From: Planctomycetota bacterium
Lineage (GTDB): Bacteria; Planctomycetota; UBA8108; UBA1146
Direction: 5' to 3'
Assembly (NCBI GenBank): GCA_018694835.1
Contig: JABHOG010000007.1
Location: 37,501-101,500, forward strand
DNA length: 64,000 bases
Each line of letters begins with the position of its first letter. Position 1 is the stretch's first letter. This document shows positions 51,821 through 60,276 of the stretch, piece after piece. A program made the translations under genes and the position numbers. Below the pieces are notes generated by a model that was not told the DNA's origin, did not search any database, and saw nothing but the letters and a program-made list of their open reading frames with translations.

Positions 51821-52975
51821 CTACATCTCCCCCGCAGTCTCGAATCGATCCTCCAGTTGCTGGATGATATCTCTCGCGCAGGCCTCGATCCCCTCCTTCG
51901 CGGTGAGCAATGCCCCCCCCATCAACATCATCGTGTCGCAGCCAAAGTCATCGATCATCTCCGGTAGTCGCTCGGGACTCATTCCGCCGGCGGGGACTAC
52001 CCACCCTGGTTTCAGAGTCGCCAGCGGTTGACGAAGAGCATCGGCGATGCTTCGCCCTTCAGATCTGGTCACGGAAAAGCGGCCACCGCTGTTGACGAAC
52101 ACCGAGCCATCGAGTCCCGCCAGCCGCGCCAGGGTGCCGTGAACGATCGGCCCTGCGATACCGGAGCCTCCGGTGAGGACACCACTCATCGAAGGATGAC
52201 CAAGGTATACGCCAGGCCAGTTACGTGTCAGTTCCCTCACGCGATCGAGCCCGATCACCCAGGGTGCCAGCAATGCTCCATCGGCTCCCGCCTCGAGTGC
52301 GATCTCCATCCGTGCATCCAGTTGTTCGGAGGGACCCAGCAGGTTGACCAGGTAGATGCGGTGCCGATCTCCCTGCTGTTGCCGGATGGCTTCGGTGCAA
52401 CGCTGGACCCGATCGCGAAACTGGTTCAGATCATCATCGATCAGGTTGTGATCATCCTTGATCAGATCCCCACCACCGCTGGTGAACTCTCTACAGATCT
52501 GTACCAGATCTGAAACCGGCGCACCTCTTGGCTTCAGAGCGGTCGCCAACAGTGGCCGACCCGTCACCCCGACCAGTTCTCTAACGCCCTCGATGCCGTA
52601 ACTCGGTCCCTGATATCGAGCGAGGACTTCATCCGGTAGGACCATCCGGGTGAGCTGAATAGATGGCAACATCGAACAGTTTCCCAGCACCAGGTTGAGC
52701 AGCTGATTCAAGTTGGATCGAGCGAGATCTCCGTTCAAGCCCAGGGTCACCTGCTGAACCCCTGCTTCCAGTTCCTCGACCTGCCGCACCTCGGCGACGA
52801 TTTCCGAAGCGATCCGCGGATATCGATCGATCAACGACTGAGGAACCTCGACCGTCAATTCGACCGCCATCTCCCTGGCCAGTTGGGCGGAGTGTGCGCG
52901 ATCACCCTCGACCCTGTAGGTCGCCTCGATGCTGTTCAAAGAGACCTCGCTGTTCAAAGAGACCTCGCTGTTCAA
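51821..52975 (-). CDS. RuBisCO-like protein (form IV-type), TTG start ambiguous (52975/52957/52939)
   Basis: GVTGRPLLATALKPRGAPVSDLVQICREFTSGGGDLIKDDHNLIDD; YLGHPSMSG; VPAGGMSPERLPEMIDDFGCDTMMLMGGAL. Confidence 0.85.
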   Translation of the reverse strand: MNSEVSLNSEVSLNSIEATYRVEGDRAHSAQLAREMAVELTVEVPQSLIDRYPRIASEIVAEVRQVEELEAGVQQVTLGLNGDLARSNLNQLLNLVLGNCSMLPSIQLTRMVLPDEVLARYQGPSYGIEGVRELVGVTGRPLLATALKPRGAPVSDLVQICREFTSGGGDLIKDDHNLIDDDLNQFRDRVQRCTEAIRQQQGDRHRIYLVNLLGPSEQLDARMEIALEAGADGALLAPWVIGLDRVRELTRNWPGVYLGHPSMSGVLTGGSGIAGPIVHGTLARLAGLDGSVFVNSGGRFSVTRSEGRSIADALRQPLATLKPGWVVPAGGMSPERLPEMIDDFGCDTMMLMGGALLTAKEGIEACARDIIQQLEDRFETAGEM

Positions 52976-52984
52976 AGAGACCTC
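52933..52984. repeat. ~3 x 18-bp repeat at the 5' end of the RuBisCO-like gene (each unit: GAGGTCTCTTTGAACAGC on minus strand)
   Basis: tgttcaaagagacctcgc repeated, third copy partial. Confidence 0.95.
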
Positions 52985-53167
52985 AAGTCCTATTTTCCGG
53001 GTGAATGGCCAGAGGATTGCCCCATCGGATGCTGGCAGATCCCTCGACCTTTTTTTTGTTGACGCTATTCTGTCTGGGGATCGTTACTACCGCTACCGGG
53101 AACCCACAGGTGCCTGCGACTGAGCAGAAACAACTGGGACTCCGGATGTCCGGACAGGAGTTTCGCA

Positions 53168-54202
53168 ATGAGCGTTCGAATTGGATTGATGGGATTCGGT
53201 CGAATCGGTCGGAATGTGTTCAGAGCGGTCTATGGCCGTGAGGACATCGAGATCGTGGCGATCAACGAACTGGCGGAAACCCATGCGATGGAGTACCTGC
53301 TCCGGTTCGATTCCCTGCGAGGCCCCTTCGAGGAGCCGATCAGGATCCTCGATGACTCGATCTACGCCGGAGGCAAACAGATCCAGGTCTTGCACCACCG
53401 AGAGCCCGGTGAGATTCCCTGGTATGACCATGGCGTCGATGTGGTGGTAGAAGCCACTGGCAAGTATCGGGCGCGTCACGAACTCCAGCAACATCTGGAT
53501 CAAGGGGCGGATCGAGTGATCCTTTCCACCCCACCGACCGACGATATCGACCACCTTCACATCCAGGGGGTGACGCCCTCGGATGTCGACCGATCGAATC
53601 GGATCATCTCGTGCGGATCATCGACGGCCAATGCCACCGCACTGCTGGTCAAGGTTCTCGAAGATGCGTTCGGAGTCGAGGAGGGTTCCTTCACCTCGGT
53701 CCATGCGTACACCTCCGATCAAAGCCTTACCGATGTTCCTGCTCGGGGAGATCTACGAAGTTCCCGCGCAGCGATGCAAAATATCGTCCCTCAGACCACC
53801 TGGACCGACGAGGCCATCGAACAATTATTCCCTCACCTGCGGGGGAAGTTCAAGGGGATCAAGTTGAACGTGCCGGTTCCCGGCGTCTCCTGCACCGACC
53901 TGACCTTGCAGATGAAGAGGCCTGTAGTCGCAGCAGAGGTGAACGAGGTGTTCCGCAGCGCTGCCGCCAGTATTCACAAGGGGTATCTCTCCTACACCGA
54001 CCAACCGATCGTCTCCAGCGACATCGGAGGGAACCCGGCCTCCTGCGTCTTTGACAGCCTCGGAACTCTGGTCACGGATGGAGTTCTCCTCAAGGTCCTC
54101 GGCTGGTACGAGCAGGGCGGCGGAATCTCCCACAGGATCGTCGAACTTGCCGCTCGTATCGGATCGAAGAGCCCCGCCGCAGGAGAGAGGAGAGAATCAT
54201 GA
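53168..54202 (+). CDS. GAPDH-like protein with catalytic Cys replaced by Ser
   Basis: GFGRIGRNVFRAVYG Rossmann; IISCGSSTANATAL in place of IISNASCTTNCLAP; SVHAYTSDQSL retained. Confidence 0.9.
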   Translation: MSVRIGLMGFGRIGRNVFRAVYGREDIEIVAINELAETHAMEYLLRFDSLRGPFEEPIRILDDSIYAGGKQIQVLHHREPGEIPWYDHGVDVVVEATGKYRARHELQQHLDQGADRVILSTPPTDDIDHLHIQGVTPSDVDRSNRIISCGSSTANATALLVKVLEDAFGVEEGSFTSVHAYTSDQSLTDVPARGDLRSSRAAMQNIVPQTTWTDEAIEQLFPHLRGKFKGIKLNVPVPGVSCTDLTLQMKRPVVAAEVNEVFRSAAASIHKGYLSYTDQPIVSSDIGGNPASCVFDSLGTLVTDGVLLKVLGWYEQGGGISHRIVELAARIGSKSPAAGERRES

Positions 54203-55191
54203 AAATCGCCATCAATGGATTTGGTCGCATCGGAAGAAGTGTTTTCAGAATCGCAGCGAGTCGCAAAGACATCGATGTCGTTGCGATCAATGACATCTCT
54301 GATCCCGACTCCCTGACCTACTTGCTGCGATACGATTCGGTGATGGGTCCCTATCCTGAAACGGTGACGCTGGATTCAGGGGTCCTCTCTGCCGGACGCC
54401 AGCGCTGCCAGTTGCTGGCACAGAGGGACCCGACCCAACTGCCCTGGAAAGACCTCGGAGTCGATGTGGTCGTCGAATCCACCGGACGCTTCCGCACCCG
54501 TGAAGAGTGCCAGATGCACATCGGTGCAGGTGCAAAAAAGGTCGTCCTCACCGTCCCTCCCAAGGACGACATCGATGCATTGCTGGTACTCGGAGTGAAC
54601 GACGAGATTCTCAAACCTGAACATCAAATCATCTCGAATGCCTCCTGTACAACCAACTGCTTGGCACCGATAGCCAAGATTCTGGATGATACTTTCGGCC
54701 TGATCCGTGGAGTGATGACCACCGTTCATGCCTATACCAATGATCAGAGTCTGGCGGACTGGTATCACCAGGATCTTCGTCGAAGTCGTGCTGCCGGTGA
54801 GAACATCATTCCCACCTCGACAGGAGCAGCCCGTGCCGTGGGAAAAGTACTTCCTCAGTTGGAGGGAAAACTCGACGGTATGGCGATGCGCGTTCCCGTG
54901 ATCGATGGTTCAGTGGTGGACCTCGTGGCCACCTTCGAGAATCCGGTGTCGGTCGAGGCGATCAACTCTGCGATGCAAACAGCTGCCGAGGGCCCGATGA
55001 AGGGGATACTCCAGTATTGCACCGACCCAGTGGTCTCCTCTGACATCATCGGAAACCCTCATTCTTCCATCTTCGATTCAAGGCTAACGACCACCATCGG
55101 AACTCACTCCGCCAAGATCCTCTCCTGGTACGACAATGAATGGGGATATTCGAGCCGCGTGGTGGACCTGATCGATCGGCTGCGGGACTGA
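54199..55191 (+). CDS. gap: Glyceraldehyde-3-phosphate dehydrogenase
   Basis: INGFGRIGRSVFR; IISNASCTTNCLAP; TVHAYTNDQ; WYDNEWGYSSRVVDL; ATGA overlap with preceding gene. Confidence 0.95.
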   Translation: MKIAINGFGRIGRSVFRIAASRKDIDVVAINDISDPDSLTYLLRYDSVMGPYPETVTLDSGVLSAGRQRCQLLAQRDPTQLPWKDLGVDVVVESTGRFRTREECQMHIGAGAKKVVLTVPPKDDIDALLVLGVNDEILKPEHQIISNASCTTNCLAPIAKILDDTFGLIRGVMTTVHAYTNDQSLADWYHQDLRRSRAAGENIIPTSTGAARAVGKVLPQLEGKLDGMAMRVPVIDGSVVDLVATFENPVSVEAINSAMQTAAEGPMKGILQYCTDPVVSSDIIGNPHSSIFDSRLTTTIGTHSAKILSWYDNEWGYSSRVVDLIDRLRD

Positions 55192-55343: not shown

Positions 55344-56312
55344 CTATGGACACGATCCATAGCTCGCGCATTCGAGGGTGTCGATGGTGGGGTCGACACC
55401 GCAGCCGCCGGTGGGGTCTGGGAAACCAGAACCGCCGTTGAATAGCTGCACGAGTATGTTGATTGCATCTGAGATGTCATGATTGCCGTCGTCGTTGGTA
55501 TCGCAGGCGTCGGCGCAAATCATGGTGCCACCGTTAAAGAGGATGTCGAGCGAGCCGACAGCGTCAGCGATGTCGACTGTTTGATCGGCGTTGCAATCGC
55601 CGCGCTCGAACTCAGTCAGCGCAATGCTGGACTCAATCCACAAGTCTGAGGTAGAGATGAACACTTCGCCAACCGGATCATCCCGCTGCCACGCGACCCA
55701 CAGCACGTGATGGCCGCTACGATTGGACGGGATCTCCACTTCGAAGTAGAAGTGACCGGCGTCCAGTTCAACTGACGGCCGTCCGAGGAATTCCATCTGC
55801 GCCCAATTGAGGGGCGTGCTCGGATCCCAGTCTGGTGTCGTCATCCAAACATCCCAAACACTCGGTTGATGTGGAGCCGTCGCGTAGAAGTCAGCTTCGA
55901 TGGTTTCGCCAGCGGTTACTGTTGTTGTCGGCCAATCTGCGCTTACTTGATCGAGTCCCGCGTAGGTGCGTGGATACTCCGAGGACGCGGGGTCGGTGCG
56001 GCCGGCGCTCGCGAGCTGGCCATCGGGCATCCATGGGGAGTAGTCGAATCCTTCGGGTAGGCCCGCGCTGACGGTCTCGGCGATGTTTCGCGAGACCTCG
56101 TTCCACGTGTAGTATGAGGTGGTGCCGTCGATAGCGACCGCGTTGGCTGCGAGTTCGAAGGCCGGGTTGTCGGGATTCGCCTGGTAGACCTGGTACACAC
56201 GACTGATCGGGAACACCATCGTTCCATGTCCATATGCGACCAAGCCCAACGATATCGTCATGCCCAAGGAAAGCAGTGCCGCTAACGCGCCCGGACTTTT
56301 CAATCGCTGCAT
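55344..56312 (-). CDS. AA10 lytic polysaccharide monooxygenase-like protein with dockerin-like C-terminus
   Basis: Signal peptide then HGTMVFPISRVYQ (N-terminal His), WDVWMTTPDWDPSTPLNWAQ, HHVLWVAWQRDDPVGEVFISTSDL; tail GDCNADQTVDIADAVGSLDILF / DTNDDGNHDISDAINILVQLF. Confidence 0.82.
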   Translation of the reverse strand: MQRLKSPGALAALLSLGMTISLGLVAYGHGTMVFPISRVYQVYQANPDNPAFELAANAVAIDGTTSYYTWNEVSRNIAETVSAGLPEGFDYSPWMPDGQLASAGRTDPASSEYPRTYAGLDQVSADWPTTTVTAGETIEADFYATAPHQPSVWDVWMTTPDWDPSTPLNWAQMEFLGRPSVELDAGHFYFEVEIPSNRSGHHVLWVAWQRDDPVGEVFISTSDLWIESSIALTEFERGDCNADQTVDIADAVGSLDILFNGGTMICADACDTNDDGNHDISDAINILVQLFNGGSGFPDPTGGCGVDPTIDTLECASYGSCP

Positions 56313-56394: not shown

Positions 56395-57390
56395 CTACAG
56401 GTACTTCTTGATCTCCTGGAGGCGGATTTCCGCTTCCTTCTGGGCTGCCGATCCTGCGTATTTCTTGCTCTTGGCCAGAGCCGCGTAAATCTTGGCTGCT
56501 TTTTCGTACTTGCCTCGTTTGACCAGGTCCTTGGCTTCATCGAGCATCGCGCTTCCGGCCATCTCCGCCTGGATCGACTTGTCCTTCTTCCACGCCTTCA
56601 GTTCCTTTTCGAACTCCTTGGCAATCGTCATCCCCTTGAAGGAGACCGCACCACGCTGTAGCGCCTGCAAGCCCGCCGAATACTTGTGCTCCTTCTTGAA
56701 CTGAGCCACCCGGGCAAGATCGACCGATGCGAACTCGGCGATCTTTTGCATCGCCTCACGAGCGGCCTTTTCCACTGCTGGATCCTTGGCCCGGCCCGCC
56801 TGCTTCTCCAGATCTTTGTAGGCCTTACCAAACTGGCCCGCCTTGAGATACTTCTCACTCTTCACCAGTTGCGGGGGCAGACTGATCTTCGGGCCCATGC
56901 GGGCACCTTCGATGTGTTTCTCGATGATGGACGCATTGAGACCTCCCGGATGACCCTTCCAGACGATCTTTCCGCCCGGACCGACTAACCAGGAGTGGGG
57001 AATCCCACGGGTCTTGTACTCTTTCGCGCCACCACCAAAAGCAACCGGGTACTGCATCTTGTTGCGCTCGATGTAGGGCTTCGCCTTGGATTCAGGTTCA
57101 TCGGTGACCCCGATGACAACCAGTCCGCGATCCTTGAACTCCTTATGGAATTGATTCAAGTGCGGAATCTGGCCCTTGCAAGGTCCTCACCAGGTGGCCC
57201 ATTTTTCGATCAGGATTAATTTCCCCTGGAGCGAATCCCAGGAGGTGTTGGTATCGATATTAATCCAACCTCCTGCGTTCAGAGCAGGAGCGACATCTCC
57301 CACCTCGGAACCTGCATCCGCAGGAATACTCGAGAGCAACAGGATGGCGATCGCCAGCGCGCTGCTTCGAGTCATGATTCTCTTTAACAT
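56395..57390 (-). CDS. TlpA/thioredoxin-like selenoprotein candidate (WATW-U-GPC), Sec codon at complement(57187..57189); TPR-like C-terminus
   Basis: ORFs 57187-57390 and 56395-57159 share one frame separated by a single TGA exactly at the first Cys of WCGPC (WATW-TGA-GPCKGQIPHLNQFHKEFKDRG); RBS AAGGAG and signal peptide upstream. Confidence 0.88.
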
Positions 57391-57600: not shown

Positions 57601-58791
57601 ATGACTTCCAGAACCGCCAATTCTCGTCAAGTCCCGCAGATCCGTGCTTCCTCGAGCTCGAATCCAGATCCGATCCTCCAGAAATCGAGTCCTCCATCGG
57701 GGTGGTGGAACGCTGCCCCGCTACTGCTGCTTCTTCTGCTTCTTCTGCGGCTGCCGATCACCCCGATTGCCGCTCAAGATCCACCACCGCCAGTTCCGTT
57801 CCCGATCGGCCCTGCGCCGGTGATTCACCTCGGCGAGACGGAGCATGACTGGGGCACCGTGCTCCAGGGGAGCCTGGTCAAGCACTCCTTCGAGGTCGAG
57901 AACCATGGCAAGGCACCGCTCAGAATCCTCAAGGTGACTTCCACCTGTGGCTGTACCTCGACTCGCTTCGATGAGTGGATCGAGGTGGGTGCGGTCGGCA
58001 TCATCGAACTGCAAGTCGACACCACCGATTTCAGCGGGGGAAGGCCACGAAAAAATGCTCTGGTCCAGACCAGTGATCCGGAGTCTCCACAGGTTCAACT
58101 TTGGATGACAGGACTGGTCGATCCATTGCTCCACTTCGAGAAAAAGGTCCTGAAACTCGAGGGGCTCTCCTTCGAATCGAAGCGACTGACCACCACGATC
58201 CTTCCCGCCACCGAACTTCCACTGGAGGTGACCGGTGCGCGCTCCAAGAACGGCTCCTTTTCGGTGGTCTCGATCGACCCCCTCGAGGATGGCGAGAAGG
58301 GCTGGAGTCTGACCCTGGAAGCGGGACCTTCCGAGACGATGGGAAGCCTCAGAGATGATCTGGAACTGTCGCTGCTGCTGGAAGACCAGAAAGAGCTGAA
58401 GATTCCATTGCCGGTGGTGGTCATTCACCAGGATCGGGTCCAGATGATCCCCAATGGCAATGTCGTGTTCTATCGCAGACATACCGCACCGCTCGACGGA
58501 CCGGTACGGCGAGAGGTGAAGCAAGAGGTGCAGATCCGCTCGGTTCGCGACGACCTCCCCTTCGAGACCTTCTCGGCAGAGATCATCGATGCCCCCGAGG
58601 GGCTCTTTGGCCTCATCATCACCGAGGTCTTGCCCGGACATCACTACAAGTTGCGCATCGATGTGCTGAAGGTCCACCCCCTCTCCACCGCCAGGGGCAC
58701 ACTTCGGATTCGCATCGGTGAGGGAAAAGATCAGTTGAGGGAAAAGCCGATCATCGCTCAATTTCGGCTCAGAAAGCCCGATTCGCCCTGA
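57601..58791 (+). CDS. DUF1573 domain protein (Cys form)
   Basis: HLGETEHDWGTVLQGSLVKHSFEVENHGKAPLRILKVTSTCGCTS. Confidence 0.85.
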   Translation: MTSRTANSRQVPQIRASSSSNPDPILQKSSPPSGWWNAAPLLLLLLLLLRLPITPIAAQDPPPPVPFPIGPAPVIHLGETEHDWGTVLQGSLVKHSFEVENHGKAPLRILKVTSTCGCTSTRFDEWIEVGAVGIIELQVDTTDFSGGRPRKNALVQTSDPESPQVQLWMTGLVDPLLHFEKKVLKLEGLSFESKRLTTTILPATELPLEVTGARSKNGSFSVVSIDPLEDGEKGWSLTLEAGPSETMGSLRDDLELSLLLEDQKELKIPLPVVVIHQDRVQMIPNGNVVFYRRHTAPLDGPVRREVKQEVQIRSVRDDLPFETFSAEIIDAPEGLFGLIITEVLPGHHYKLRIDVLKVHPLSTARGTLRIRIGEGKDQLREKPIIAQFRLRKPDSP

Positions 58792-58932: not shown

Positions 58933-60276
58933 ATGAGAGGCAGATTTTCGGTGAAAAATGCAATCCTGGGAGTTCTCCTGACCATCGCAGCGGGCTTACC
59001 CCTTTCTGCCTTCCAACTGAGCGATGATGACCTCGGTCCTCCACCTCCCCCGGCGGAGGTGGGTCCACGCATCTCCTTCGACCAACTGACCCATGACTGG
59101 GGCACCGTGCTCCAAGGCGCCAAGGTGGAACACACCTACCGCTTCAGTAATACCGGATCCTCGGTACTGCGCATCACCAATGTGAAGCCTGGCTGAGGCT
59201 GCAGTCGCGGGACCTTCACCCGCGAAGTCCTCCCCGGTGGGGAAGGCGAAATCACCCTCAGCGTCGACACCTCCAAGTTGCGCACCGAAACGGTACGGAA
59301 GTACGCTACCGTCAGTTGTAACGATCCTCGGCAGCCCAGTATCCGCCTCAACATCAATGGCATCCTGCGCCAGGTGATCAAGTCGACTCCCAATGCTCTG
59401 ATCCTCAAGGGTCCGGTGGGAGAGACTCTCTCCGGTATGTTCGAGGTGTCCAGGGGTACCGAACTGGGAATCACGGTCACCGAGGTGACCGTCAACAAGA
59501 ACCAGGCCGATCTCTATCAGATCGTCGAGGTCGTGGAAGGTGAGAAGTACGAGATCCACCTCACCGCACCGCCGGCGCTAGTCGCTGGAATGACCCGCGA
59601 TATCGTCAATGTAGAGGTGGTTTGTAGTGACGGAGAAATCCGTACCACCACCGTCCCCTTGACCCTTAACCACCAGTCTCCCATCACCATCGTTCCTCGC
59701 GGCAACATCGTGTTCCAGCGCAAGGAGACGGAGCGACTCTCGGTACCCGGTGCCGCAGTGGTGAAGAAAGACATCCAGGTCTTCGCCACCACCCCCGGAA
59801 CCCGCTTCAATATCAAGAGTATCTCCATCGATGATGTGCCCGAGGGCGTGTTCGGTGTCACTCAACGGGTGATTCGCGAATCCGAACGTTACGTGATCTC
59901 GGTCGAAGTGCTGCAGAGCCGCCCCGAGCGATCGATTCGAGGCACCTTGAGGATTCAAACCGATCTCGAAGGGATGCCAGAGCTCACCGCACGCCTGTAT
60001 GCACAGTTTGCCCCCCCTCCGACTCGTGGTGGCGGCGCTCGCCTACCGCAGACACCGAGGCGCAAGGTGGCTCCGACGGCCAAGCCTGCCCCTCCGGGCA
60101 GGAAGCCTGCGCCCACGGCCAATCCGTCTCCCTCGGCCAAGCCGTGGCCAGGATTGAAGACGGGACAGCCGCAGGTGGGAGTCCTGAAACCTGTGCCGCA
60201 GAAACCTGTGCCGCAGAAACCTGTTGTGCCGCAGAAACCTGTTGTGCTGCAGAAGCCTGTGCCGCAGAAACCCTGA
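58933..60276 (+). CDS. DUF1573 domain selenoprotein candidate (VKPG-U-GCS), Sec codon 59194..59196; Pro-rich tail
   Basis: ORFs 58933-59196 and 59278-60276 are in one frame with no other stop between; TGA falls at the first Cys of the DUF1573 C-G-C motif seen intact in the adjacent paralog. Confidence 0.88.
59206..59224 (+). promoter_or_regulatory. Candidate bacterial SECIS hairpin after the DUF1573 UGA
   Basis: CGCGGG-ACCTTCA-CCCGCG starting 9 nt after the TGA. Confidence 0.55.
60186..60276. repeat. 15-18 bp repeats encoding KPVPQ/KPVVPQ at the end of the DUF1573 gene
   Basis: cctgtgccgcagaaa and variants. Confidence 0.9.

Follow-up and report, generated by a model that had tools for sequence, protein, structure and literature searches.

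The gene at 58933-60276 on the plus strand of the window (the whole stretch of 64,000 nucleotides of planctomycete DNA that was analysed) almost certainly encodes, judging from comparison with its relatives, a SelB-dependent bacterial selenoprotein that belongs to a known family, the DUF1573 selenoproteins. Its in-frame UGA at 59194-59196 (plus strand) occupies, by comparison of TGA- and Cys-carrying sequences, the first position of the C/U-G-C motif and would specify selenocysteine (Sec) as residue 88 of the product (...ITNVKPG-U-GCSRG...), with the cysteine at residue 90 as its candidate partner. DUF1573 proteins with a UGC motif (PF07610) are already catalogued among the prokaryotic selenoproteins (PMC9312934, PMC13188914); the family is credited to Zhang and Gladyshev 2007, from the delta symbiont of Olavius algarvensis (see PMC13188914). 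Redoxin family selenoproteins with a UxxC motif have also been catalogued (PMC9312934), and planctomycete selenoproteins in general were reported earlier (PMC4807772). Since the UGC form of DUF1573 is a listed selenoprotein family, what is new here is no more than a planctomycete branch of it, with a possible SECIS variant made up of two hairpins.

The window gene shares with the catalogued DUF1573 selenoproteins both the domain and the position of Sec (first Cys of CGC), but it belongs to the Planctomycetota and not to the Deltaproteobacteria, and its product is unlike the catalogued protein in its length of ~450 aa, its tandem Ig-like domains and its Pro-rich tail. The NCBIfam model NF041425 (OS_HP2 family (seleno)protein) matches it across the Sec site (E=1.8e-26) with 92.3 bits, below the curated cut-off of 100, and the window protein is a relative just outside this curated subfamily.

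Reading frame and conservation of the UGA codon

The frame comprises 448 codons including the stop and is interrupted once, by the TGA at 59194-59196; as the initial annotation had described, its read-through translation is otherwise open to the final stop. It had also anticipated that automated callers would split the gene, and ORF finders indeed cut the frame at the UGA, the downstream part being called from TTG 59278. The true start may be GTG 58951, which is preceded by GAGAGG and opens the signal-peptide-like VKNAILGVLLTIAAGLPLSA (judged by eye); from this signal-like N-terminus the protein is probably exported. At the opposite end (60150-60273) lies a Pro-rich PQKPV repeat whose length is apparently variable among relatives. 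The Pfam domain PF07610 is matched across the TGA (E=1.1e-18, 67.5 bits against a cut-off of 26.1) at residues 47-143, a range that includes the TGA position, so that the domain itself spans the stop. Among informative pairs of close relatives dN/dS is ~0.14-0.25 before and after the TGA (one upstream comparison, with a dS of only 0.015, is uninformative), and by this measure purifying selection is similar on both sides.

At the Sec codon TGA is found in 12/12 members of the clade recovered across the family, the window gene included, and at the same codon in all 13 members (13/13) of a second Sec paralogue family; it is retained in independent assemblies of relatives. Three further Sec-DUF1573 genes occur in genomes G007, G009 and G016, while two other DUF1573 paralogue families are uniformly Cys at this column. 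The tandem paralogue with a CGC motif at 57601-58791 (plus strand; Pfam E=1.9e-15) reads TSTCGCTS at the UGA column, as first reported, and has Cys in all 12 clade members used. Homologues at this column thus show a strict Cys/UGA alternation and no random disruption. The tree needs at least two Sec/Cys changes; in it the Sec clade to which the window gene belongs has a Cys gene of G007 next to it, albeit one with a long branch. Among 42 aligned members, just two cysteine columns are invariant, that of the Sec/Cys site itself and the one two residues after it.

The same genome (G000) carries a second Sec-DUF1573 gene at C59:26935-27978 (L138, L181), its copy of the second Sec paralogue family, with the motif NGTUGC and the same GG-loop hairpin as described below; the genes on either side of it encode large proteins of secreted type with FG-GAP/dockerin and cadherin-like repeats. 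Distant DUF1573 homologues from Bacteroidota, Zixibacteria and others comprise 54 matches with the Cys motif, 27 without the motif and none with U, so this set supplied no Sec form outside Planctomycetota for comparison; the class of the source organism itself contains only 29 genomes.

Sec-decoding genes and a neighbouring Sec-redoxin

The planctomycete assembly to which the window belongs (3.13 Mb in 149 contigs, 95% complete) contains all four of selA, selB, selC and selD. A tRNA-Sec with anticodon tca (ARAGORN SeC; Infernal 67.5 bits) is found immediately downstream of selA (C79:61391-62749) and selD (C79:62848-63771), the order on this contig being selA-selD-selC in a row, and selB is located at C45:2051-3940 (392 bits against a cut-off of 242). 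The selD gene has an in-frame TGA of its own (YASCAGUAAKL) and is itself a Sec gene. Some relatives that bear Sec genes are without a detected machinery gene (no selB above cut-off in G001, no selA or selD in G005 and G009), plausibly owing to incomplete assemblies. The machinery, the Cys/UGA alternation and the TGA of the relatives agree with the proposal, made from the window alone, of a Sec-containing DUF1573 protein.

A second gene of the window, overlooked in the initial annotation, is by its read-through translation also that of a selenoprotein: a TlpA/ResA-like redoxin at 56395-57390 on the minus strand, with the motif WATW-U-GPC and a TGA at 57187-57189. The Pfam domain AhpC-TSA spans this TGA (E=3.7e-15), the catalytic CxxC reads UGPC, and the TGA is kept in 10/10 loci compared; synonymous freezing in the redoxin gene is not significant (p=0.11). 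The redoxin, too, has a signal-like N-terminus and is probably exported. Like the catalogued UxxC redoxins it has U at the CxxC site, but it lies below the NCBIfam selenoprotein cut-offs tried (37.4 of 300 bits for WAxxUGC_long) and differs in being syntenic with the DUF1573 pair, from which it is divergently oriented, across the family. A scan of the window for in-frame TGAs flanked on each side by sequence that looks coding yielded 19 candidates, two of which (57189 and 59194) were judged real. At the top-scoring candidate, 20434, two transporter genes overlap by ATGA, and the others were dismissed by eye as chance.

The gene order RuBisCO-like protein, two GAPDH, Sec-redoxin, Cys-DUF1573, Sec-DUF1573, Na/Ala symporter and PLP enzyme is kept across genera. 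Within this block, the RuBisCO-like gene (PF00016) adjoins two tandem overlapping GAPDH genes, 43% identical to each other, at 51821-55191, an arrangement conserved across the family. An LPMO_10 gene (PF03067, lytic polysaccharide monooxygenase), whose product has a dockerin-like tail, found on the minus strand at 55344-56312 and also at L182:4640-5629, lies between GAPDH and Sec-redoxin in G000, G004 and G006 and is missing at that place in G001, G002, G003, G008, G011 and G014. The G006 copy of LPMO_10 is 97% identical, against ~60-84% for the neighbouring genes, which suggests a recent horizontal transfer or exchange.

RNA structures downstream of the UGA

Codons +1 to +17 after Sec (59197-59247, plus strand) form a region of frozen synonymous choice. 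Excess codon identity is 0.65 here and 0.23 elsewhere in the gene for the Sec family of the window gene, and 0.75 and 0.18 for the second Sec family (0/20000 permutations in either case), whereas the same region of two Cys families has no synonymous-codon excess (p=0.37 and 0.17). This freezing, present in Sec genes and absent from their Cys paralogues, indicates a signal at the RNA level. In the Sec families the region following the TGA also exceeds its codon-shuffled versions in stability; in the Cys families the excess is slight. The selD gene of the same genome served as a positive control: its codons are similarly frozen, ending after a hairpin whose loop GGUCG lies ~26 nt from the UGA.

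Two hairpins are predicted in this region. Hairpin 1 (59205-59225, plus strand; UCGCGGG / CCCGCGA, loop ACCUUCA) is the perfect hairpin CGCGGG/CCCGCG of the initial annotation, which was recovered at 59206-59211/59219-59224 and extended by one U-A pair. It begins 8 nt after the UGA, is more stable than codon shuffles (mean z -2.0 in the window Sec family and -1.6 in the second), and occurs in each Sec family, but with differing sequence and register. Hairpin 2 (59227-59247, plus strand) has a stem around CUCCCC-GGU-GGGGAA and carries GGU as its apical loop (59236-59238), at a distance of 39 nt from the UGA. In an RNAalifold consensus of 21 Sec genes it is the single shared helix (59229-59246), in which columns 36-42 and 46-53 form 7 pairs around a GGN loop and the base at 50 is bulged; the majority of base pairs are without covariation, and the pairing therefore rests on energy and codon constraint and not on compensatory change. 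Against codon shuffles, hairpin 2 has mean z values of -2.9 and -2.6 in the two Sec families and of about -0.4 in the Cys families, and its Pro CCC and Gly GGG codons are used by every member of both Sec families (backgrounds 0.28 and 0.16).

The published model of the bacterial SECIS element asks for a G in the first two loop positions, 16-37 nt from the UGA, while some elements fall outside it (PMC13188914). In its 3-nt GGN loop and its stem, which has 7 pairs and one bulged base, hairpin 2 agrees with this model; the window gene departs from it in its spacing of 39 nt and in having a second conserved hairpin ahead of the one with the GG loop. Hairpin 1 is close to the UGA, but its loop lacks the required G and begins at 15 nt. 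The hairpin named in the initial annotation makes up only half of the signal, and hairpin 2, under stronger selection and with a fitting loop, is the better SECIS candidate. The loop rule, the selection on its codons and the selD control make hairpin 2 the probable SelB-binding element, and hairpin 1 would absorb the extra distance. An Rfam scan of 50-64 kb of the window gave no match to a SECIS family (matches to CsrC and mir-2071 were far below the gathering score). When the same genome was searched with R1, a covariance model of the SECIS region, only the two DUF1573 Sec genes reached E<0.01; as just this known pair was retrieved, the model revealed no further selenoproteins.

Alternative explanations

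In a metagenome-assembled genome, nonsense mutation or the miscalling of a TGC or TGT can produce a lone in-frame stop, and ORF finders divide the frame as if a short secreted protein ended at the UGA and another began at TTG 59278. The clade-wide TGA and the purifying selection on its two sides argue strongly against both decay and two genes. Decay or error would have to have struck the same codon throughout separate assemblies and again in the second family, in a genome with a complete Sec machinery, and we consider it to have virtually no chance of being correct. The division into two genes is only marginally less improbable: it conflicts with a DUF1573 domain that runs across the TGA, with the conservation as protein, among relatives, of the codons between the TGA and 59278, and with the freezing of synonymous codons right after the TGA. 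UGA reassignment occurs in some bacteria, and in this lineage the codon might be subject to general readthrough or be assigned to another amino acid. TGA, however, is an ordinary stop here, the 58933-60276 frame itself ending in TGA 60274-60276; the in-frame TGAs of the window judged real are only at redox-type Cys positions, and dedicated tRNA-Sec, SelA, SelB and SelD are present, so that readthrough or reassignment of this kind is exceedingly improbable.

A more serious alternative accepts the insertion of Sec and takes hairpin 1 alone as the SECIS element, as initially proposed, hairpin 2 serving another purpose. The nearness of hairpin 1 to the UGA, its excess stability and the presence of a hairpin at the same place in the second Sec family, if of different sequence and register, speak for it. 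Hairpin 2, however, shows the stronger excess stability together with strong codon constraint, has the GGN loop demanded by the published model where hairpin 1 is without the required G, and resembles the GGUC-loop hairpin of the organism's own selD. We regard hairpin 1 alone as unlikely, though still to be reckoned with.

Predicted structure and proposed role

The predicted structure of the Sec-DUF1573 protein (pLDDT 87.7) is all-beta and made up of tandem Ig-like domains; in it the U-x-C pair lies at the edge of a strand. A fold search returned generic tandem Ig-like matches alone, with low TM-scores, and a PDB sequence search found no credible relative. Another Sec-DUF1573 gene, in G007 and G009, is preceded on the same strand by a gene of SCO1/SenC type (thiol-redox-type). 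In two relatives (L187:5023-7771 and L193:6130-8802) a third type of Sec-DUF1573 gene has a double SCO1/SenC gene directly before it, an arrangement that hints at a connection with copper or thiol handling.

In the mechanism that we propose, the UGA at 59194-59196 would be decoded as Sec by tRNA-Sec and SelB in translation, SelB being recruited by a compact tandem-hairpin element at codons +3 to +17. The GG-containing loop of hairpin 2 would probably be the part bound by SelB, and hairpin 1 would fold up the intervening RNA, bringing a loop 39 nt off to a normal effective distance. In the protein, the U-x-C pair at the beta-strand edge would probably serve in thiol/selenol redox chemistry, and electrons may pass between it and the UGPC of the neighbouring Sec-redoxin. 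From the motif, the N-terminus, the fold prediction and synteny, the most likely role is thus an extracytoplasmic thiol/selenol redox one, with the redoxin as a possible partner. The combination of a bipartite SECIS (a spacer hairpin followed by a GG-loop SelB hairpin 39 nt off) with an extracytoplasmic redox pair of Sec-DUF1573 and Sec-redoxin is put forward tentatively, as a reading whose chances we rate somewhat short of even.

Conclusions

The window gene extends the DUF1573 selenoprotein family to the Planctomycetota, with several conserved Sec lineages, in genes that ORF calling splits. With two hairpins, one of them just past the accepted spacing, it offers a clean test case for the reach of the bacterial SECIS rules; a bipartite SECIS, if true, would lie beyond that spacing and so be overlooked or wrongly assigned by the SECIS finders now in use. 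Finally, the Sec-redoxin beside Sec-DUF1573 gives this domain of unknown function a specific candidate partner.
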